DNA from: Bacillota bacterium
Lineage (GTDB): Bacteria; Bacillota; Peptococcia; Peptococcales; Peptococcaceae
Assembly: GCA_023443145.1 (NCBI GenBank)
Contig: JAEZVS010000059.1
Location: 1-11,029, forward strand
DNA length: 11,029 nucleotides
Reading direction: 5' to 3'
This document shows, piece by piece, positions 478 to 8,966 of this stretch. A model generated the notes under the pieces. The model ran no database searches. It was not told the DNA's origin and saw only the letters and a list, made by a program, of their open reading frames with translations. Position 1 is the first letter of the stretch, and each line of letters begins with the position of its first letter. Position numbers and translations under genes: made by a program.

Positions 478-507
478 TTGCAGGAAATGCGGACGACGTG
501 CTATACT
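478..507 (+). promoter_or_regulatory. Probable promoter of the dnaX-ybaB-recR operon
   Basis: TTGCAG (478-483), 18-nt spacer, TATACT (502-507), followed by a leader of roughly 35 nt to the dnaX start. It points away from the divergent promoter at 430-458. The -10 is good and the -35 is a 4/6 match. Confidence 0.55.
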
Positions 508-547
508 CACTTTATGTAAACGGGTGCACATGCGGGAGGTGATGACC

Positions 548-2215
548 ATGGCTTATCAGGCCTTGTATCGGGCGTGCCGGCCCCAACGCTTTGCCGATTT
601 GGTGGGTCAGGATGTGGTGGGGCAAACCCTCTTGAACGCCATTTTGCAAAATCGATTGGCCCACGCCTATCTTTTTTGCGGGCCGCGAGGCACAGGCAAA
701 ACATCCACCGCCAAAATTTTGGCCAAAGCTGTCAATTGTCTCCATCCGCAAGAAGGTGAGCCCTGCGGCGTGTGCGACAACTGCCGGGCCATTGACGGCG
801 ACCGCTTTATTGACGTGGCCGAAATTGATGCGGCCTCGAACCGCGGCATTGAGGACATGCGCGAATTAAAAGAGCAGGTGCGCTTTGCGCCGTCTCTGGG
901 CGCATACAAAGTCTACATCATTGATGAAGTACATATGCTCACCACGGAAGCCTTTAACGCCCTCTTAAAAACGCTGGAAGAGCCTCCGGCGGATACCCTC
1001 TTTATTTTGGCCACCACCGATGTTCAGAAAGTGCCTGCCACCATTCTGAGCCGTGCGCAGCGCTTTGATTTTGGCCGTATTTCCCCCCATCTCATTGAAG
1101 AGCACCTAAAGCGTATCGCCCAAAACGAAGGGGTGCAATTATCCGACGATGCGGCGGCCCTTCTGGCCGAAGAGGCCCATGGCGGCTTGCGGGATGCGGT
1201 GAGCCTTTTGGATCAGGCCATGAGTTATGCCGGGCGCGACATCAACCGTCGAGATGTGTTGGCGCTCATTGGCGGCTTTAACGAAGAACTCCTCCCAACG
1301 CTGGTGGAAGCCCTGGCCGATCGCGATGCCGACACCCTCTTCGGCACTTTGGCCGACGCCCTTTATCACGGGGCTGACGCCCGCGCCCTGTTGGATGCCA
1401 TGGCGACCTTTATGCGCCGCCTCTTCTATCGTTGCGTCACTCCCGGGGGCAGAAGCCGAGAAGAAGATGGCCCCTTAAGCGCGCGCTTTTCTTTGCAGGA
1501 ATACGAAGCCTTTCTGCGCGCATTGGGCGAAGCCCAAACCGCCCTTCGCCTGGCGCCTGACGCACAATTGGTGCTGGAAGTGGCAATGATGGACCTTTAC
1601 CTGATTGCCACCGCAACGCCAAAGGCGTCAAGTCTGTCGGTAAAAAAACCGACCGTGACCGCTTCAGCAGCGCCGCCTTCCGTTTCAAGAGACCATGGCG
1701 CCGCCGCCCCCGCCATGGTGGAAAAACCGCCGTCCTCCAGCGAAGACAAATCCCCTTCCTTACCGAAGACCGATGGCGCGCCCGACGCCGCGAGCCTTGC
1801 GCCCGCTCCGGAAAAAGCCCCGAAAGAGGTAGCGGAAACCTCTGCGGAAGATGGGGCAGAAAAAGGGGCGGCAAAACATGCCCTCACCCCGGCCCGGCTG
1901 GAAGCCGCGTGGCCCGAGGTAATAGAAGCCCTCCGTAAAGAAAGTGTACGCTTACACGCATTTATGAAACCGGCTCAATTGGCGCCGCCGGAAAACGGGC
2001 ACATTGTGGTGCGCTTTCCGCCCCGCCACGAGTTTCACTACAATCAGATGAATGTACCTGAAAACATCCAGCTGCTCACCAAACTGTTTGATGCCGTACT
2101 GGGCGAACACCACAGCCTGCGCATCGTCTTAGATGCACCCCGGGAGGGTCCGGGTTTGGCTGAAACGGCCAAAAATCTTTTTGGCGCCGAGCACGTACAC
2201 ATTATTGACGATTAA
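548..2215 (+). CDS. dnaX: DNA polymerase III subunit tau (gamma/tau), clamp loader ATPase
   Basis: This is the clamp-loader motor subunit that opens and loads the beta sliding clamp and tethers polymerase cores at the replication fork. Visible in the 555-aa product are Walker A GPRGTGKT (residues 45-52), a zinc module with Cys64, Cys73, Cys76 and Cys79, Walker B with DEVH (126-129), sensor 1 around ATTDVQK (155-161) and the SRAQ arginine-finger motif (168-171). Domain III runs to about residue 360. A Pro/Ala/Glu/Lys-rich linker follows (about 365-450) and then a C-terminal tau-specific domain. Length matches Bacillota tau proteins. The ATG at 548 is chosen because GGAGGT at 535-540 lies 7 nt upstream. 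In-frame ATGs at 524, 530 and 542 would sit on or before that site. It is the first gene of dnaX-ybaB-recR. A run of seven A residues (1642-1648) at the domain III/linker boundary is described separately. Confidence 0.97.
   Translation: MAYQALYRACRPQRFADLVGQDVVGQTLLNAILQNRLAHAYLFCGPRGTGKTSTAKILAKAVNCLHPQEGEPCGVCDNCRAIDGDRFIDVAEIDAASNRGIEDMRELKEQVRFAPSLGAYKVYIIDEVHMLTTEAFNALLKTLEEPPADTLFILATTDVQKVPATILSRAQRFDFGRISPHLIEEHLKRIAQNEGVQLSDDAAALLAEEAHGGLRDAVSLLDQAMSYAGRDINRRDVLALIGGFNEELLPTLVEALADRDADTLFGTLADALYHGADARALLDAMATFMRRLFYRCVTPGGRSREEDGPLSARFSLQEYEAFLRALGEAQTALRLAPDAQLVLEVAMMDLYLIATATPKASSLSVKKPTVTASAAPPSVSRDHGAAAPAMVEKPPSSSEDKSPSLPKTDGAPDAASLAPAPEKAPKEVAETSAEDGAEKGAAKHALTPARLEAAWPEVIEALRKESVRLHAFMKPAQLAPPENGHIVVRFPPRHEFHYNQMNVPENIQLLTKLFDAVLGEHHSLRIVLDAPREGPGLAETAKNLFGAEHVHIIDD
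1642..1648 (+). other. Candidate slippery site A AAA AAA inside dnaX
   Basis: Seven A residues fall in zero-frame phase GTA AAA AAA CCG (codons 365-368), giving the X XXY YYZ pattern used for -1 frameshifting in Escherichia coli dnaX. Poly-A also supports transcriptional slippage, as in Thermus dnaX. Moving to the +1 frame (or losing one A) meets TGA at 1656-1658, giving a product of about 369 aa that ends after domain III, the layout of a gamma subunit. A -1 shift instead stays open to TAA at 1936-1938. A 9-bp hairpin (1692-1700 with 1711-1719) lies about 43 nt downstream, farther than usual for a frameshift stimulator. Function is inferred only. Confidence 0.35.
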
Positions 2216-2248
2216 GGTCCAACCACCTCAGTAAAAAGGAGAATGAAC

Positions 2249-2563
2249 ATGGCCAACATGCAAAAAATGATGAAAGAAATGCAGAAAATGCAAAATCAGA
2301 TGAAGAAATTACAGGAAGAACTGGCCGAAACGCCTGTTACAGGAACATCCGGCGGCGGCGCCTGCACCGTGACCGTCAACGGCAACAACGAAATGCTTTC
2401 TGTAAAACTCGCGCCCGATGTGGTGGATCCCGACGATGTTGAAATGCTGGAAGATTTAATTGTGGCCGCCACCAACGACGCCATGAAAAACGCCAGCCAA
2501 TTGTCGGAAGAAAAAATGGGCAGCCTCACCAAAGGTATGAAACTCCCGGGCGGACTTTTTTAA
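2249..2563 (+). CDS. ybaB: YbaB/EbfC family nucleoid-associated protein
   Basis: This is a small DNA-binding protein of the YbaB/EbfC family, which forms a dimer shaped like tweezers and coats the nucleoid. The gene classically sits between dnaX and recR, as here. The product is 104 aa, the usual family length. It has a Met/Lys/Gln-rich N-terminal helix ([20 protein letters not shown]), a central Gly-rich beta segment with [13 protein letters not shown] and a C-terminal helix ending in MKLPGGLF. The ATG at 2249 is preferred over the one at 2243 because AAGGAG at 2236-2241 is 7 nt from the former and only 1 nt from the latter. The stop codon TAA shares its last base with the recR ATG (TAATG), implying translational coupling. 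Confidence 0.93.
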
Positions 2564-3162
2564 TGAGCCGCCCCAGAGACGCGCTGGCCGATCTTATTGA
2601 CGCCTTTGCACGTCTGCCGGGCATTGGCCGTAAAACCGCCGGGAGACTGGCCTTTCACATCATCGATGCCCCCGACGACGAAGTCAATTTTATGATTCGG
2701 GCCTTGGAAAACGCCAAAACCCAAATCGGACACTGCCCCATTTGCGGCAATTTAAGCGATGGCAGCCCCTGCAAAATTTGTCTGCAGAGTGTGCGCAAAA
2801 ACGGTCAGCTTTGCGTAGTGGAAGAGGTGCGCGATATTGTGGCCCTTGAACGCACCCAGGCTTTTCGCGGCCGTTATCACGTATTGGGCGGTCATCTCTC
2901 ACCTATGGACGGCATTGGCCCCAACCAGCTGCACATTCAGGAGCTTTTCCGGCGTCTGGAAGAAGAAGATATCAGCGAAGTGATTCTGGCCACCAATTCA
3001 TCGGTGGAAAGCGAGGCCACCACCCTATATTTGATTGAGCAGCTGAAAAAATATCCGGTGCGCACCACCCGCATCGCCCAAGGGTTGCCCATGGGCGCCG
3101 ACATCAAATACGCCGATGATGTGACGCTGGCCCGCGCTTTGGAAAGCCGCTTTGAGGTGTAG
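2563..3162 (+). CDS. recR: Recombination mediator protein RecR
   Basis: RecR acts with RecO and RecF to load RecA on single-stranded DNA covered by SSB during recombinational repair. The 199-aa product has the full architecture at the normal length. A helix-hairpin-helix region includes LPGIGRKTAGRLA (18-30). A four-cysteine zinc finger uses Cys58, Cys61, Cys70 and Cys73. A Toprim domain begins near LCVVEE (83-88) and includes HVLGGHLSPMDGIGP (106-120). The conserved C-terminal segment is GLPMGADIKYADDVTLARAL (174-193). The start overlaps the ybaB stop by one base and lacks a strong separate ribosome binding site, so translation probably depends on ybaB. No hairpin terminator follows the stop; transcripts may continue through the tRNA gene to the terminator at 3314-3361. 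Confidence 0.96.
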   Translation: MSRPRDALADLIDAFARLPGIGRKTAGRLAFHIIDAPDDEVNFMIRALENAKTQIGHCPICGNLSDGSPCKICLQSVRKNGQLCVVEEVRDIVALERTQAFRGRYHVLGGHLSPMDGIGPNQLHIQELFRRLEEEDISEVILATNSSVESEATTLYLIEQLKKYPVRTTRIAQGLPMGADIKYADDVTLARALESRFEV

Positions 3163-3180
3163 ATATTTTTAGCCAACCAC

Positions 3181-3210
3181 TTGACAAAATCCCATTTGAT
3201 GCGCTAAGAT
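3181..3210 (+). promoter_or_regulatory. Promoter of tRNA-Leu
   Basis: A perfect -35 TTGACA (3181-3186), an 18-nt spacer and -10 TAAGAT (3205-3210) lie 14 nt before the mature tRNA 5' end. It begins just 18 nt after the recR stop, so the tRNA may be made both from its own promoter and by read-through. Confidence 0.75.
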
Positions 3211-3223
3211 AATAAGGCATCTT

Positions 3224-3307
3224 GCGGATGTGGCGGAATAGGCAGACGCGTGCGTTTCAGGGGCGTATGCCAGCGATGGCGTGTGGGTTCGACTCCCACC
3301 ATCCGCA
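3224..3307 (+). tRNA. tRNA-Leu (anticodon CAG)
   Basis: The 84-nt class II cloverleaf can be folded by hand. The acceptor stem is GCGGATG with CATCCGC and discriminator A. The D stem is GCG/CGC with a GG-containing loop. The anticodon stem TGCGT/GCGTA has two G-T wobbles around loop TTCAGGG, with anticodon CAG at 3258-3260. A long variable arm has GCC/GGC pairing. The T arm is GTGGG-TTCGACT-CCCAC. The long variable arm and CAG anticodon indicate leucine, reading CUG. The 3' CCA is not encoded (TCA follows the discriminator), so it is added after transcription. tRNA 3' ends are frequent integration targets, which matters for the AT-rich island that follows. Confidence 0.95.
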
Positions 3308-3313
3308 TCATGA

Positions 3314-3361
3314 CGAGTGTGCTTACAGCATTTGACACGCTGTAAGCACACTCGTTTTTTT
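3314..3361 (+). terminator. Intrinsic terminator after tRNA-Leu
   Basis: A perfect 16-bp inverted repeat (3314-3329 with 3339-3354, left arm CGAGTGTGCTTACAGC) encloses a 9-nt loop and is followed by seven T residues (3355-3361). It starts 6 nt after the tRNA and would end both the tRNA and any recR read-through transcript. Confidence 0.92.
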
Positions 3362-3449
3362 CTTGTTTTCATCCGGCTTTCCGCCGGGATGTCGTGAACA
3401 AACACACCTTTCCGGCTATTGACGGTCACATCAGGAATGAGAAAGGACA

Positions 3450-3489
3450 GCAAAAGAAAAAGGATGATTAGACAGCGCTTATCATCCTT
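3450..3489 (-). terminator. Intrinsic terminator of the ECF/araC operon
   Basis: A perfect 9-bp inverted repeat (AAGGATGAT at 3460-3468, ATCATCCTT at 3481-3489) with a 12-nt loop is followed, on the minus strand, by a T-rich tract (3450-3459). It lies about 55 nt beyond the araC stop, in the right place and direction to end the operon. Confidence 0.75.
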
Positions 3490-3544
3490 AATGCCACCAG
3501 GCTTCAATTTTTCTTTCCGTTCTACACGACCTATTCTGTATCAG

Positions 3545-4504
3545 TTAGACAATTGATTTTCGGTATTCTAACGGCGTTTTACCCATTGTTTGATGAAATG
3601 CGGAAGCAAATTTGCTGGGACTGCCATATCCTACAAGTCCCGCTATCTCAGCCACTTTGAGTGTCTTATCGGATCGCAGCAAAGAAGCCGCATAGTTCAT
3701 ACGATAGTTTCTCATATATGTAAAAATCGGGCTGCCATATACCGATTTGAAACATTTTTTCATGGGGGTCAGGGCAATATCAAACTGCGCGGAGAGTTCT
3801 TCCAATGTATAGTTTTGGGTCAAATCCTGGGTGAGAAGTGCATGGATTGCTTTGATTTTCTCAATTTGTCCTTTATAAAAATAGGGACGTTCTTCTGTAC
3901 GACCTGAGAGTTCCAGAGCATCCAGAAACAGCAACAGCTCCAACACTTTGATCTTGAAATAGTCCTTTTTAATTTTGACCGGCACATGGTAAAGTTCTGA
4001 AAAAATATGTTCAATAGCCGGTTCTTTGGGAATGACATAGGGCATGCGGTCACTGCAATATTTTTTCTGTAATTCATAAAGATCCACGGAAAACCCTTTC
4101 ATATAAGCCGGAATCTCTTTTGCCGCAGTTTCCATTTGAAAGCCAATGGACATACCGTGATAGTGGCAAAGGGGAAATTCTACTTTTCCCGAATGATGGA
4201 TGCGGCGATCCACTCGAAGATCACCAGCTTCTAAATAACTAAAAGTATCTTGTCCGACTTCCTGCTCGATACTGCCTTCCCGGCAGTGGTCAATACAGAG
4301 CAGGTCCATATCTGTCTGAAAGCCCGAAATGCAATTCTTCATGTGAAAGTCATTATACATGAGAAATACACCAGGAAAGACATGATAGACTGTCATCATA
4401 CCTTCACCGGAGCCATCATTTAACCGCATGATTTTACAATCATCCGATTCTATCAGATGTTGAACATTGGGGCCGCAGTTGATTTGCTGAAACAACTCTA
4501 GCAT
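3545..4504 (-). CDS. AraC-family transcriptional regulator of the ECF operon
   Basis: This is a predicted DNA-binding regulator of 319 aa. The C-terminal third (about 215-317) is an AraC/XylS double helix-turn-helix domain. The first helix-turn-helix lies at 232-257 (YTLEELSAQFDIALTPMKK...). The second, at 282-316, contains VAEIAGLVGYGSPSKFASAF and ends in GKTPLEYRK, the usual AraC signature order. The N-terminal two thirds form a putative effector domain with motifs such as GSGEGMMTVYHVFPGVFLMY; this general organisation recalls PchR/YbtA-like regulators of metallophore uptake, a similarity I judge by eye only. The ATG is preceded by GGAGG with 8-nt spacing and overlaps the ATPase stop by 7 nt, so regulator and transporter are translationally coupled. 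Being the last gene of the operon, it probably feeds back on its own promoter near 7292-7300. The effector is unknown. Confidence 0.92.
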   Translation of the reverse strand: MLELFQQINCGPNVQHLIESDDCKIMRLNDGSGEGMMTVYHVFPGVFLMYNDFHMKNCISGFQTDMDLLCIDHCREGSIEQEVGQDTFSYLEAGDLRVDRRIHHSGKVEFPLCHYHGMSIGFQMETAAKEIPAYMKGFSVDLYELQKKYCSDRMPYVIPKEPAIEHIFSELYHVPVKIKKDYFKIKVLELLLFLDALELSGRTEERPYFYKGQIEKIKAIHALLTQDLTQNYTLEELSAQFDIALTPMKKCFKSVYGSPIFTYMRNYRMNYAASLLRSDKTLKVAEIAGLVGYGSPSKFASAFHQTMGKTPLEYRKSIV

Positions 4505-5913
4505 AAATGCTGCCTCCTCTCTGCGTGGCCTCCCTTCATAGCAAATATTTTATCACAAGTCCGGCTCAAAAACTCGAAATCATGAGAAACAATGATCATG
4601 ACTTTGTTTTCCGTTTTAAGCCCCCGAATCATATTGCTGACTTCCAACATACAACGATAGTCCAGACCGCTGGTCGGTTCATCAAAGATAATCATATCTT
4701 TGTCAAAGAGAATAGCAGTTGCTACTGCAAGGCGCTGCTTCTGACCGCCTGAAAGGGCCATTGGATGGCGATCTTTGAAATCCATCAAGTCAAAGGATCT
4801 GAGCATTTCTGCAATTTTCTCTGGTGGGCAATCCGGCTGTGCCAGCTCACATTCGTTCCAGACGCTGTCCGAAAAAAGCTGATGGTTCACATCCTGCATA
4901 ACACAGAAGCTGGCCTTATTCCGCTGTTTTACCTTCAGACTTTGTCCGTCCAGCCGGACCGTTCCACAAACTTCTTTCAAAAGTCCGCACAGGCAACGCA
5001 TCAGCGTTGTTTTGCCTGCGCCGTTATGACCGACAATTCCCAACACTTCGCCCCGTTTTGCAGAAAAGCCGAGATTGCTGAATACCGGCTTCTTATCAAA
5101 AGCGCAAGAAAGATTTTCTACGGATAAGCCTTCCTGCGCGCCCGGCAGATCGGCGGGAGGCTTATCCAGTACAGGATAAACAAAAGTTCTAAGCCCCATC
5201 CTGATGCGCTGTTCATTCGAGAGACTGCAAAATTCCTCCCCTGAAAAGACCTGAACGATGTTCCCCTTTTGAATAAAGATTGCGCGGTCAATCAGGTCCA
5301 TCAGGAAATATAGACGGTGTTCGGCAATGACAACTGTCCGTCCTTCTTTTTTGATCCGGATGATCTGTTGACGTAAAGTATCAATCGAATCAGCATCCAG
5401 GTTTGCGGTCGGCTCGTCCAGCACAAAAATGGACGGGTTCATAGCATATACAGAAGCAAACGCAAGACTTTGTTTCTCTCCGCCAGACATAGAGAAAATA
5501 TTTCTTCCCAAAAGGGATTGGATTTTCAGGGCGGAAACAGTGGCGTCATATCGTTCTTTGATTTTTTCCGGTTCAACACCCGCATTTCCCAAACCGAAAG
5601 TGATCTCGCTATCTGAGTCAATATTGAAAAATTGAGATTTCGGATTTTGAAATACTGATCCAACATGCTTTGCCAGTCGGTACATTTCTGTTTTCGTCAC
5701 TTCCATATCGTTTACAATCGTCGTACCTGATAAAGTACCCCCCTCAACAAAGTGAGGAATTAAACCGTTCATCAGTTTTGTCACTGTCGTTTTGCCACAG
5801 CCCGATTCTCCTATAAGGACCACGCATTCGCCTTGTTGGATATTCAAATCAATATGGGAAAGTACTCCTTGCTCTTTCTCATATTCAAAAGATACATCCT
5901 GAATCTGGATCAC
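4498..5913 (-). CDS. ECF transporter ATPase with two fused ABC domains
   Basis: This is the energy module of an energy-coupling factor importer; it hydrolyses ATP on the cytoplasmic face to drive uptake through EcfT and the S component. The 471-aa chain contains two complete nucleotide-binding domains, equivalent to fused EcfA1 and EcfA2. Domain 1 has Walker A GESGCGKT (35-42), Q-loop Gln89, signature MSGGEKQ (142-148), Walker B IFVLDE (162-167) and switch His199. Domain 2 has Walker A GHNGAGKT (295-302), Q-loop Gln340, signature LSGGQKQRL (387-395), Walker B MIIFDE (407-412) and switch His444. All catalytic residues are intact in both halves. The start is GTG at 5913, supported by AAGGAG 8 nt upstream; that site overlaps the TAA of the preceding ecfT-like gene (13-nt gap). 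The fused ATPase dedicated to one S component suggests a group I, stand-alone ECF system. Confidence 0.94.
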   Translation of the reverse strand: MIQIQDVSFEYEKEQGVLSHIDLNIQQGECVVLIGESGCGKTTVTKLMNGLIPHFVEGGTLSGTTIVNDMEVTKTEMYRLAKHVGSVFQNPKSQFFNIDSDSEITFGLGNAGVEPEKIKERYDATVSALKIQSLLGRNIFSMSGGEKQSLAFASVYAMNPSIFVLDEPTANLDADSIDTLRQQIIRIKKEGRTVVIAEHRLYFLMDLIDRAIFIQKGNIVQVFSGEEFCSLSNEQRIRMGLRTFVYPVLDKPPADLPGAQEGLSVENLSCAFDKKPVFSNLGFSAKRGEVLGIVGHNGAGKTTLMRCLCGLLKEVCGTVRLDGQSLKVKQRNKASFCVMQDVNHQLFSDSVWNECELAQPDCPPEKIAEMLRSFDLMDFKDRHPMALSGGQKQRLAVATAILFDKDMIIFDEPTSGLDYRCMLEVSNMIRGLKTENKVMIIVSHDFEFLSRTCDKIFAMKGGHAERRQHLC

Positions 5914-5926
5914 ACAGAACAGCTCC

Positions 5927-6610
5927 TTATCTTACTGTAATTGAAACCACGCAGAAAGCTACCCCAGCCACCAGGCATAAGAAGTCCTGCACACCGAACT
6001 TCATCTCCATCATGCTTGTCTTGGGCGCAGGATTTTCAATTCCTCGCGTAACAGCAGCAGCAGACAATTCTTCCGCTGTCGTTGTTGCAGAAATCATGAT
6101 CGGCACCAGCAAACATTCCATTTTCTGTGCGCCATGAATATTGCGGAGCTTCATGGCATCCCGGATGTAGCCGGTTTCTTCTTTTAAAGCAGGAAAATAG
6201 CGCATGGTTACAGACAGAGGGATGATGAGGCTTTGCGGAATATGCCATTTCCGCAAAGCGGCCATCAATTCCTGGACAGATGTTTTCTGCACTATCATCG
6301 CACCAACGATCAAACAAGGAAAAATCTTTCTTGCGTAGGACACGATAATGATAAAACTGCTGGCTAGTATTTTCGGACTATTGGGGAGAATGTAATATTG
6401 TAAGGCCAGACAAAGCCCAAAAGCGATTGCCAGTTTACCTGCGGATTTAACACAGCCGCAGACGACGATCATCAGAAGCAGCAAAACCACCCATGTCATT
6501 TCAACCCATACAGAGTGCTGAGTAAAGGCGACTATATTTGCCAAAACCAGCAAAAGCAGTTCTGTGCGCGGGTCAAATCGTAATGTGTGTGTTTTGGCTG
6601 CCTCGTTCAT
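5927..6610 (-). CDS. ECF transporter transmembrane protein, EcfT/CbiQ family
   Basis: This integral membrane scaffold of the ECF importer connects the ATPase to the substrate-binding S component. The 227-aa product has hydrophobic segments at about 17-31, 36-53, 58-74, 81-107 and 207-225. Its long cytoplasmic coupling region carries DAMKLRNI (151-158) and AAAVTRGIENP (184-194), the latter matching the Ala-Arg-Gly coupling-helix motif of EcfT proteins that contacts the ATPases. The start ATG overlaps the stop of the upstream S-component gene (ATGA, 4 nt), so the two are translationally coupled. Length is a little short of typical EcfT but no domain seems missing. Confidence 0.9.
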   Translation of the reverse strand: MNEAAKTHTLRFDPRTELLLLVLANIVAFTQHSVWVEMTWVVLLLLMIVVCGCVKSAGKLAIAFGLCLALQYYILPNSPKILASSFIIIVSYARKIFPCLIVGAMIVQKTSVQELMAALRKWHIPQSLIIPLSVTMRYFPALKEETGYIRDAMKLRNIHGAQKMECLLVPIMISATTTAEELSAAAVTRGIENPAPKTSMMEMKFGVQDFLCLVAGVAFCVVSITVR

Positions 6611-7215
6611 GACACAATACCCGCTTTCACAAAATGCTTTTTAAACAGTCTTCTGGCAATAAAGGCCCCAATGATACCGCCGATAATTGGCGCAACAAAG
6701 AGAACCATCAACATTGTATTGGATGACAAGGCTTCTACTGCCGCGACATAATCAGAGGGCATTCCCTGTTCCGTAATCTGAGCTAGGAAGTCTGCCTTGA
6801 ACAGCCAAATCGGAAGAGGAGAGCCAACCATACCCAGCGAAAAAATCACATAAGCTACCGAATTTCCCTTATAGCTGTTATACTTAGTCACTGCTCGAAT
6901 AACTTCAGCTAAAATGCAGCTTGATGCCATGGAAATCAAAATCACAAGGGTAAATTGACCTGTGGAAAAATAAATTAAGGCAGTGATGAACCCCATCAGG
7001 AAAACAGCGCCCGGCTTTTGAACTTTTGCGGCCATCAGCATAAATGGAATACCTGCAAGCACAGCAATGAAGCCGGGCATCAGCATCCAAAGAACAGGAT
7101 GAATACCCCCCATAAGCATGAAGGCAAAGTTGATGACAAAGTAAATTGCGGAAAAGATACCGATGGTAATGAGGTCTTTCCCTTTCAGTTTTTTGTCCGT
7201 ACTCATAACAGTCAT
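6607..7215 (-). CDS. ECF transporter S component, MptD/Trep_Strep family
   Basis: This is the predicted substrate-capture membrane subunit of the ECF importer. The 202-aa protein is mostly hydrophobic, with about six membrane segments (roughly 14-33, 43-63, 69-86, 88-109, 119-138, 167-188). It carries the family-typical opening LKGKDLITIGIFSAIYFVI. Similarity is to the MptD / Trep_Strep (TIGR02185, PF09605) family, recognised from memory of the pattern; substrates in that family are largely uncharacterised. The ATG at 7215 is chosen because AAGGAGG (7224-7230) lies 8 nt upstream; the frame stays open farther upstream but without a ribosome binding site. First gene of the operon, overlapping the next by 4 nt. 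Substrate cannot be read from sequence; the linked AraC regulator makes a metal chelate, haem or cofactor possible but unproven. Confidence 0.85.
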   Translation of the reverse strand: MTVMSTDKKLKGKDLITIGIFSAIYFVINFAFMLMGGIHPVLWMLMPGFIAVLAGIPFMLMAAKVQKPGAVFLMGFITALIYFSTGQFTLVILISMASSCILAEVIRAVTKYNSYKGNSVAYVIFSLGMVGSPLPIWLFKADFLAQITEQGMPSDYVAAVEALSSNTMLMVLFVAPIIGGIIGAFIARRLFKKHFVKAGIVS

Positions 7216-7264
7216 GTACAATTCCTCCTTTTGGTTAGTTAATGCTAATATGCGGGCTTTTTGA

Positions 7265-7282
7265 AAGCGCCCTTCGGCGCTT
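7265..7282 (-). promoter_or_regulatory. Hairpin in the 5' leader of the ECF operon
   Basis: A perfect 7-bp stem (AAGCGCC at 7265-7271, GGCGCTT at 7276-7282) with a 4-nt loop falls in the predicted leader between the promoter and the ribosome binding site, about 50 nt before the start codon. No T tract follows it on either strand, so it is not an ordinary terminator. It could stabilise the message or bind a regulator. No known riboswitch was recognised in this leader. Confidence 0.35.
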
Positions 7283-7291
7283 ATCGTTGCC

Positions 7292-7300
7292 ATCATAGCA
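7292..7300 (-). promoter_or_regulatory. Probable extended -10 promoter of the ECF/araC operon
   Basis: On the minus strand TGCTATGAT forms an extended -10 element (TGnTATGAT) about 77 nt upstream of the S-component start. There is no convincing -35 at the expected distance, which fits a promoter that needs an activator such as the AraC-family protein encoded at the end of the operon. Confidence 0.45.
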
Positions 7301-7360
7301 AACCTACAGAATCTTTTCCGCTCCAATCGGCCTTTTTTGCTCCCATCAGACAGTTTCTTT

Positions 7361-7404
7361 TTATAAGAGTGTTGCCGAATGAATGCCTTTATTCTTATAA
7401 GAAT
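7361..7404. repeat. Paired TTATAAGA boxes, one inside a 14-bp palindrome; possible operator
   Basis: TTATAAGA occurs at 7361-7368 and again at 7395-7402, 34 bp centre to centre (close to three helical turns). The second copy is embedded in the perfect 14-bp palindrome ATTCTTATAAGAAT (7391-7404). They lie upstream of the ECF promoter and before the relaxase relic, a position suited to an operator for the AraC-family protein. AT-rich palindromes also occur by chance. Confidence 0.35.
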
Positions 7405-7452
7405 TCCGGTTTGGTTTTATTCTTCCTGAACCATTTCTCTTATTCAAGATTG

Positions 7453-7491
7453 TCGTTTTCGTAGAGAGAGCATACGAGAGTAGGGAAACGA
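7453..7491. repeat. Nested inverted repeats just upstream of the relaxase relic
   Basis: Inner arms TCGTA (7459-7463) and TACGA (7473-7477) flank a 9-nt loop; outer arms TCGTTT (7453-7458) and AAACGA (7486-7491) extend the structure with an 8-nt bulge on one side. Origins of transfer often carry inverted repeats and lie directly upstream of the relaxase gene, so this may be an oriT relic. The evidence is positional and the stems are short. Confidence 0.25.
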
Positions 7492-7952
7492 TAGCAAGCA
7501 CAGCAAATGAGTACCCGCTGTTGACGCTGAAAGCGGCGATTGACCCTATTTGCAATCCCGACAAGACGGATGGAAATCTGCCGGAGTCCGTCTTCGGCTG
7601 CACAGCGGAGACTGCCGACATAAATTTACTCGGACCCACCGCCACACCATCGACAAGGGTGCGTACTCAGGATGCCGCCTGATCCAAGCCTTTGAGTCCG
7701 GAGAGGTGTCACCGGAGGGGCATGCTTGAAATTGGGTTGCAGCCGCCAAAAGAAGACATACTGAGCGGCAAATGCGCATTCATACGGAGCACCCATATTG
7801 ACTAAGAACATATTCATAACCATCTGCTCTTCAACGCAGCCCGTTTCACCGGCCACAAGCAGCACCGCTCCCAGAAGCACATCTGCCACGACATACGCAG
7901 GGCCGGCGACCGACTGTGCAGAGAGCATGGCCATGGTGGTCATAATGACATT
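7491..7952 (+). pseudogene. Decayed relaxase (conjugative mobilization nuclease), N-terminal third
   Basis: Intact relaxases of the PF03432 type nick DNA at the origin of transfer and lead it into the recipient. Here three segments in two frames reconstruct one. Segment 1 (7491-7622) reads TLKAAIDPICNPDKTDG (7524-7574), then FGCTAETADI. Segment 2 (7622 to about 7718, another frame) reads LIQAFESGEVSPE (7679-7717). Segment 3 (about 7722-7952, back in the first frame) reads AFIRSTHID, a TAA stop at 7803-7805, then EHIHNHLLFNAARFTGH and DIRRAGDRLCREH. The HxHNH metal-binding motif remains. The start position appears to be ATA instead of ATG (7491-7493), after AGGG. One base seems lost near 7623 and a second shift lies near 7718-7728. 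The family's probable catalytic Tyr in the IDYI motif is Pro (7545-7547). The C-terminal two thirds are absent; homology fades near the transketolase terminator. The gene is clearly dead. Confidence 0.85.
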
Positions 7953-7976
7953 CAAGGCTACAACATCTCGCGCAAC

Positions 7977-8011
7977 AAAGAGCCGGCTTCTCTAAGAGAA
8001 GCCGGCTCTTT
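7977..8011 (-). terminator. Terminator hairpin of the transketolase operon
   Basis: A perfect 17-nt inverted repeat (7977-7993 with 7995-8011, left arm AAAGAGCCGGCTTCTCT) lies 19 nt past the stop of the downstream transketolase gene. On the minus strand the arm ends in CTCTTTGTTG, a short T-rich tail. The symmetric arms could also stop plus-strand transcripts. Stem strength compensates for the weak T tract. Confidence 0.75.
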
Positions 8012-8030
8012 ACTGCGCGTCAATATTATG

Positions 8031-8966
8031 TTATTTGCGATCGATGGCAAGGCGGGCGGCGCGCACGATGGCATCCGGCGTAAGGCCGTAACATTCTTTT
8101 AATTCGTCGGGGGTGCCGCTTTGCCCGAATTGATCTTTCACACCTACGCGCTCCAACGGCACAGGCACGGTTTCGGCCAATACTTCCGCCACGGCGGAGC
8201 CCAGTCCGCCAATGATGTTGTGTTCTTCGGCAGTAACAAAGGCTTCGGTGATGCGGGCCCACCGCACAATTTCGTCACGGTCGATGGGCTTGATGCTGGA
8301 TACGTTTAAGACGGTGGCGGAAATGCCTTCGTCGGCCAGGGCTTCAGCCGCTTCCAGGGCCTCGGCCACCATAATGCCGCAGGCGGCAATGGTCACATCG
8401 ATGCCTTCGCGCATCACCTGGGCACGACCCACAATAAAGGGTTCGTCTTCTTCCGTCACCGTTTCCACCTTGGCACGGCCCAAACGAATATAGACGGGGC
8501 CGTCCACATCCAAAGCGGCGGCAATGGCGCCTTTGGTTTCGGGACCGTCGGCAGGCACCAGCACCGTCATATTGGGCAGGGTGCGCATAAGGGAAATATC
8601 TTCAATCATTTGATGGGAACCGCCATCTTCGCCCACGGTGATGCCCGCATGGGTGGCGGCAATTTTTACCGGCAACTTGGTGTAACAGATGGAATTTCGA
8701 ATTTGGTCGTAAGCACGGCCGCAAGCAAATACGGCAAAGGTGGAGGCAAAGGGTATTTTGCCTGCGGCGGCCAGTCCGGCGGCCATGCCCATGAGGTTCT
8801 GTTCGGCAATGCCGGCGTTAAAGAAACGTTCGGGAAAGGCTTTGGCAAAAACCGACGTTTTGGTGGAGCCGGACAAATCGGCATCTAAAACCACAATGTC
8901 GTCGCGTAAATTGCCCAGTTCGGCTAAGATGTCGCCATAGGCGTCGCGGGTGGCTTGTTTGCTCAT
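8031..8966 (-). CDS. Transketolase, C-terminal subunit (pyrimidine-binding and C-terminal domains)
   Basis: This is the second half of a split transketolase, which with its partner transfers two-carbon units between sugar phosphates in the non-oxidative pentose phosphate pathway, using thiamine diphosphate. The 311-aa product contains the pyrimidine-binding domain, with Glu55 in GIAEQN (52-57), the residue that activates the cofactor in this family. FASTFAVFACGRAYDQIRNS (73-92) and HAGITVGEDGGSHQMIED (106-123) are also conserved, and a Rossmann-like C-terminal domain follows. Length is normal for the split form. The ATG overlaps the stop of the partner gene (ATGA) and has AAGGAGG 7 nt upstream, so the two chains are probably made in equal amounts. 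A related 1-deoxyxylulose-5-phosphate synthase is excluded by the split layout and the motif pattern. Confidence 0.94.
   Translation of the reverse strand: MSKQATRDAYGDILAELGNLRDDIVVLDADLSGSTKTSVFAKAFPERFFNAGIAEQNLMGMAAGLAAAGKIPFASTFAVFACGRAYDQIRNSICYTKLPVKIAATHAGITVGEDGGSHQMIEDISLMRTLPNMTVLVPADGPETKGAIAAALDVDGPVYIRLGRAKVETVTEEDEPFIVGRAQVMREGIDVTIAACGIMVAEALEAAEALADEGISATVLNVSSIKPIDRDEIVRWARITEAFVTAEEHNIIGGLGSAVAEVLAETVPVPLERVGVKDQFGQSGTPDELKECYGLTPDAIVRAARLAIDRK

Follow-up and report, generated by a model that had tools for sequence, protein, structure and literature searches.

What was the DNA between the ECF transporter operon and the transketolase operon of the window (the whole stretch analysed, 11,029 nucleotides), and where did it come from? 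The original prediction read 7491-7952 as a fossil relaxase gene with layered damage. We read the stretch, at a probability of about 0.9, as a dead mobilisation module left by an integrative element, mobilisable or conjugative, of a kind common in gut Clostridia. The features of the locus itself are as follows.

7490-7517, plus strand: oriT-like half-site (core, left hairpin arm and loop; right arm not kept), by a 27/28 match to OY725877.1
7518-7523, plus strand: deletion junction from the half-site to relaxase codon 12, by the core-relaxase distance in intact loci against zero here
7524-7931, plus strand: PF03432 relaxase pseudogene covering residues 12-146 of about 444, by frame-aware profile alignment
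7545-7547, plus strand: Pro codon at the Tyr19 position (Tyr in 36/36 intact relatives)
7623-7624, plus strand: first frame change, by profile alignment
7727, plus strand: second frame change, place approximate, by profile alignment
7803-7805, plus strand: in-frame TAA within the His motif stretch, by translation and profile alignment
7969-8019, minus strand: inverted repeat past the transketolase genes, with 25-nt arms that are 92% complementary

Members of the relaxase superfamily nick DNA via a tyrosine and a metal bound by a His motif, and lead out the nicked strand. For the homology assessment, a profile was made from a non-redundant selection of 36 intact relaxases out of 157, and both frame changes and stops were allowed in the alignment. 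Applied to the region 7400-8040, it aligned 7524-7931 of the plus strand to residues 12-146 of the 444-residue PF03432 relaxase with a score of 349 half-bits, against a mean of 32.3 and a maximum of 46.7 half-bits in 25 dinucleotide shuffles, 34.2 half-bits on the reverse strand, and 27.8-38.7 half-bits on the two strands of six other places. All 120 relaxases listed, out of 7,991 matches, align to the plus strand inside 7480-7960 (E 1.9e-32 to 2e-18), and 117 of these 120 alignments span 7521-7527 to 7931. The fossil relaxase with its layered damage is thus borne out, and the frame-aware match is not confined to a short chance segment. The predicted peptides occur in the sequence, in the predicted order and in two frames: TLKAAIDPICNPDKTDG at 7524-7574, LIQAFESGEVSPE at 7679-7717 in another frame than TLKAAIDPICNPDKTDG, THID at 7791-7802 followed by the TAA and then by EHIHNHLLFNAARF at 7806-7847, and IRRAGDRLCREH at 7893-7928. 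As the significant homology runs colinearly over the PF03432 domain, we regard the stretch as a relaxase by descent, that is, a pseudogene.

Single pieces of the pseudogene carry part of this signal. The PF03432 check that had been proposed gave a divided result: 7806-7994 matches the family (E 4.4e-5) with 24.2 bits, under the gathering cut-off of 24.6, and the other three pieces match no Pfam family. Searched alone in plasmids at an E limit of 10, 7491-7679 matched 19 records and 7806-7994 matched 353; OY725877.1 was matched by both, on the same strand and with 279 nt between them, as against 282 in the window. Even the intact relatives yield only sub-threshold relaxase matches in NCBIfam (SAG1250 family, 89.5 bits versus 575), and no solved structure was found for the intact relaxase. 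At the DNA level, 7450-8020 has no match among plasmids and phages, and the 46 genomes of the host's presumed class gave just three matches of 23-31 nt, which we take as chance.

The damage was largely predicted correctly. The shift expected near 7623 and the second one expected near 7718-7728 coincide with the two frame changes placed by the profile, and the TAA is confirmed as an in-frame stop. Proline also stands where the prediction had put it, at the position of Tyr19, which we take to be the probable catalytic tyrosine (motif I; the relaxase group would be MOBP). A working PF03432 relaxase would need this tyrosine and a continuous full-length frame, and the window has neither, given the two frame changes, the stop and the absence of both ends. 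The His motif is retained, with His101, His108 and His110 in place and the stop codon separating His101 from the other two. The fossil is altered at one of 13 invariant columns (Tyr19 to Pro), at 3 of 19 columns conserved to 95% (Tyr19, His63 and Ser138) and at 8 of 30 conserved to 90%; when intact sequences were left out in turn, the columns conserved to 95% held a mean of 0.44 changes and a maximum of 4/22. This loss of conserved residues is below what a very old fossil might show. The two frame changes by themselves could be assembly errors; assembly error as the whole explanation is rejected, since it leaves the deletion, the truncation and the loss of the tyrosine unaccounted for. With codons 1-11, mobC and about two thirds of the gene absent, the fossil is, judged from its sequence, able to make no working relaxase.

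The 5' edge departs from the original prediction, which had seen an ATG-to-ATA start codon at 7491. A relaxase N-terminus at 7491-7523 was considered and rejected: relaxase homology begins at codon 12 (7524), and the DNA in front of it is an oriT-like motif. The stretch 7490-7517 is identical at 27 of 28 bases to OY725877.1, positions 2591-2618, between the HTH gene and mobC. It so happens that the join places the virtual relaxase start at exactly 7491, in frame, which is a coincidence.

Relatives of the half-site were sought by DNA comparison in 42 relaxase loci. The stretch was found by blastn in 13 of them, and a 26-mer of it, at up to 8 mismatches, in 22; across 3.1 Mb from other loci, with both strands counted, the same 26-mer gave 21 matches, every one at 7-8 mismatches. 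The core RTAGCAAGCA followed by an inverted repeat occurs on either strand in 36/42 loci, as against 26 times in the 3.1 Mb control. On the relaxase strand and less than 1 kb upstream, core and hairpin are present in 34 of the 42 loci, 376-834 nt before the relaxase start, and an upstream hairpin site on that strand is absent in eight; one locus has, beside the proper site, an extra core site at 34 nt from the relaxase. When the core was picked regardless of the repeat, it was found with at most two mismatches in 38/41 loci. The hairpin arms covary: over the 29 distinct sequences, with wrong picks retained, 81% of the cells are paired, compared with 32-49% in slid registers and a maximum of 68% (mean 58%) when the arms were re-dealt 1,000 times. 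From this architecture, a core with a covarying hairpin upstream of mobC, the motif is probably the oriT of the relaxase group. A literature search, which sequences printed in figures would escape, found nothing linking the motif to oriT.

The conserved core that stands upstream of mobC and relaxase in intact loci is present in the window; the complete hairpin is not, as only four of seven right-arm positions can pair, two of them as G-T. The core lies at distance zero from the virtual relaxase start, and core, left arm and loop abut codon 12. Since the right arm is missing and this distance is zero, a deletion is required.

At the other end, relaxase homology stops at 7931. The predicted extent of 7491-7952 is thus too wide for the relaxase: homology covers 7524-7931, with the 3' breakpoint at 7931, not 7952. 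The C-terminal relaxase, mobC and the HTH gene were sought in the window, and no trace better than E 0.7 was found. A weak match that pairs relaxase residues 267-284 with 7970-8023 (E 0.45, 78 alignments) lies inside the inverted repeat and was taken as chance. The repeat is probably the transketolase terminator; a simple terminator scan of 7150-8060 reported none. Its left arm (7969-7979) has an 11-base string in common with OY725877.1 from about position 2553, upstream of the oriT-like motif, probably by chance.

Identity of the pseudogene to intact relaxases ranges from 39 to 72 of 135 columns. The nearest relaxases are Clostridia types, the best being identical at 72/135, and three relatives from the host's presumed class are far from the fossil (39-42/135); in that class, a relaxase relative is present in 8 of 46 genomes (E <= 1e-10). 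The source would have been an integrative element with the intact order oriT, mobC and an overlapping PF03432 relaxase. Its intact relaxase would have nicked at the oriT hairpin with the motif I tyrosine and a metal on the His motif, and led the strand out. In the order of lesions that we infer, a deletion would have fused half of oriT to relaxase codon 12, and the remaining gene would have gained two frame changes and a stop and lost its tyrosine, with all past residue 146 gone.

Whether this dead module belongs with its neighbours depends on the left side of the window, where two further features matter.

3223-3309, plus strand: tRNA-Leu (CAG), far edge of the low-GC island
3545-7326, minus strand: ECF transporter S, T and A genes and an AraC-type regulator, low GC, by Pfam and NCBIfam

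The window appears to be an entire metagenome contig, as the proteins it encodes are listed from one contig of 11,029 bases. The host looks Peptococcaceae-like from its proteins: the C half of transketolase reaches 82% identity with its best relative, 72% with Peptococcus simiae and 71% with Peptococcaceae-named proteins (120 listed of 7,998). In the nearest genome compared (G035), identity is 73% for transketolase and 64% for RecR, the two genes lying on separate contigs. The left side is ordinary host DNA, because the order recR then tRNA-Leu(CAG) is common to G035 and G045. At the right end, the MATE gene (GC 52.0%) passes the general MATE model only and no multidrug model.

Between these flanks lies the ECF island. 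Its S component is of the MptD family, with a gene start probably near 7216. The most serious alternative is that a single degraded mobile element extends from the tRNA-Leu to 7931, the relaxase coming from the element that delivered the island. GC content speaks for it, being 44.3% in the island (3545-7216) between 55.4% (500-3400) and 56.7% (transketolase), as do the composition change points, which adjoin the tRNA-Leu 3' end (3323; 3151-3503) and fall on the oriT-like core (7514; 7445-7582). So does the sporadic ECF S gene, found in 4/391 Clostridia genomes (E <= 1e-50; 51-64% identity) and in none of the 46 genomes of the host's presumed class (E <= 1e-60). Further genome sets gave 0/4 and 0/8; a count of 0/7 at 1e-70 is little informative, as this limit is stricter than a known match. 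Four plasmid records contain it at 32-62% identity, and five pattern matches in viral contigs include no relative. Against a single element, the fossil has a host-like GC content of 55.7%, unlike the island (four intact relaxases measured 41.9-53.3%). No direct repeat of at least 14 nt that could serve as att repeats was found in 3150-8100, and no relaxase match in five loci with related ECF S genes, four of them under 4 kb. Pfam scans of the window genes, the partial gene at 3-473 left out, revealed no integrase family, so that neither an integrase nor flanking repeats were found to support an integrative element. Delivery of the island by the fossil's own element is thus possible, though unlikely. 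Since the island combines low GC with a sporadic S protein that nevertheless shares 80-92% identity with the 119 further proteins listed (of 966), it was probably acquired, and probably as a separate acquisition set against tRNA-Leu(CAG). The dead mobilisation module may be older than the island, or independent of it.

The position of the right-hand composition break, at best 7514 and hence on the oriT core, resembles that of mobilisable elements which target another's oriT. It is on this ground that the island might have entered at, or by, the nick region of the older element's oriT, and the half-site might persist, recognised by a related relaxase supplied in trans; we hold this to be improbable.

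Still more doubtful is a co-option of the remnant, be it for the ECF operon, as regulatory or antisense DNA, or as a small open frame. The half-site does lie some 275 nt ahead of where the S gene probably starts, and there are open frames of 65-109 amino acids on both strands, including the antisense frames that had been foreseen. Neither the antisense frames nor any of the four open frames tested match a Pfam family, however, and between 7223 and 8021 a simple scan found no promoter-like site and there is no Rfam match. Finally, the cancelling of the two frame changes and the common frame of both ends might point to a gene that still works by way of programmed frameshifting and recoding; this is rejected in view of the two cut ends (codons 1-11 and mobC at one, the C-terminal two thirds at the other), the replacement of Tyr19 and the TAA inside the His motif stretch.

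Beyond the window, 10 of 148 Clostridia genomes contain the exact motif pattern, at 17 places in total; a reversed control pattern was found at one. Of the loci of about 3 kb taken at these 17 places, five contain a relaxase match and 12 do not, although a relaxase could lie beyond the locus; going by these 12, relaxase-less copies are not rare. Seven such loci without a relaxase match have the core at about 1501-1524, and for one of them a relaxase copy that has a core of its own lies some 4 kb away in that genome; the seven cores are possible second or relaxase-less oriTs. Another genome has repeated core copies in four loci, on stretches about 91-95% alike, some in tandem and some with half a hairpin as in the window, and one continues into a mobC-like start.

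A codon-only reading of a dead transfer gene can thus misplace its edge, here by taking a piece of a probable oriT for a mutated start codon. The core with its covarying hairpin, found with 34 of 42 related relaxases, is a candidate oriT for a group of gut elements and usable as a tag for dead or relaxase-less copies.

Two kinds of known systems invite comparison. IME_oriTs are described as mobilisable elements that have a Rep-trans type relaxase of their own and are integrated in the oriTs of ICEs, namely MobT ICEs (PMC7563843). As far as this description goes, the window differs in that no Rep-trans type relaxase gene is seen, and is alike in that foreign DNA apparently stops at an oriT or close to one. 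Closer are the gut Clostridia mobC-relaxase modules of OY725877.1, NZ_OY725736.1 and NZ_AP023416.1 with their relaxases of about 444 residues, the latter two annotated in the order HTH, mobC, relaxase. Unlike these, the window copy holds residues 12-146 only, without mobC and the right arm of the hairpin and with lesions; the oriT-like core, which in all three stands with its hairpin upstream of mobC, is shared with the window.
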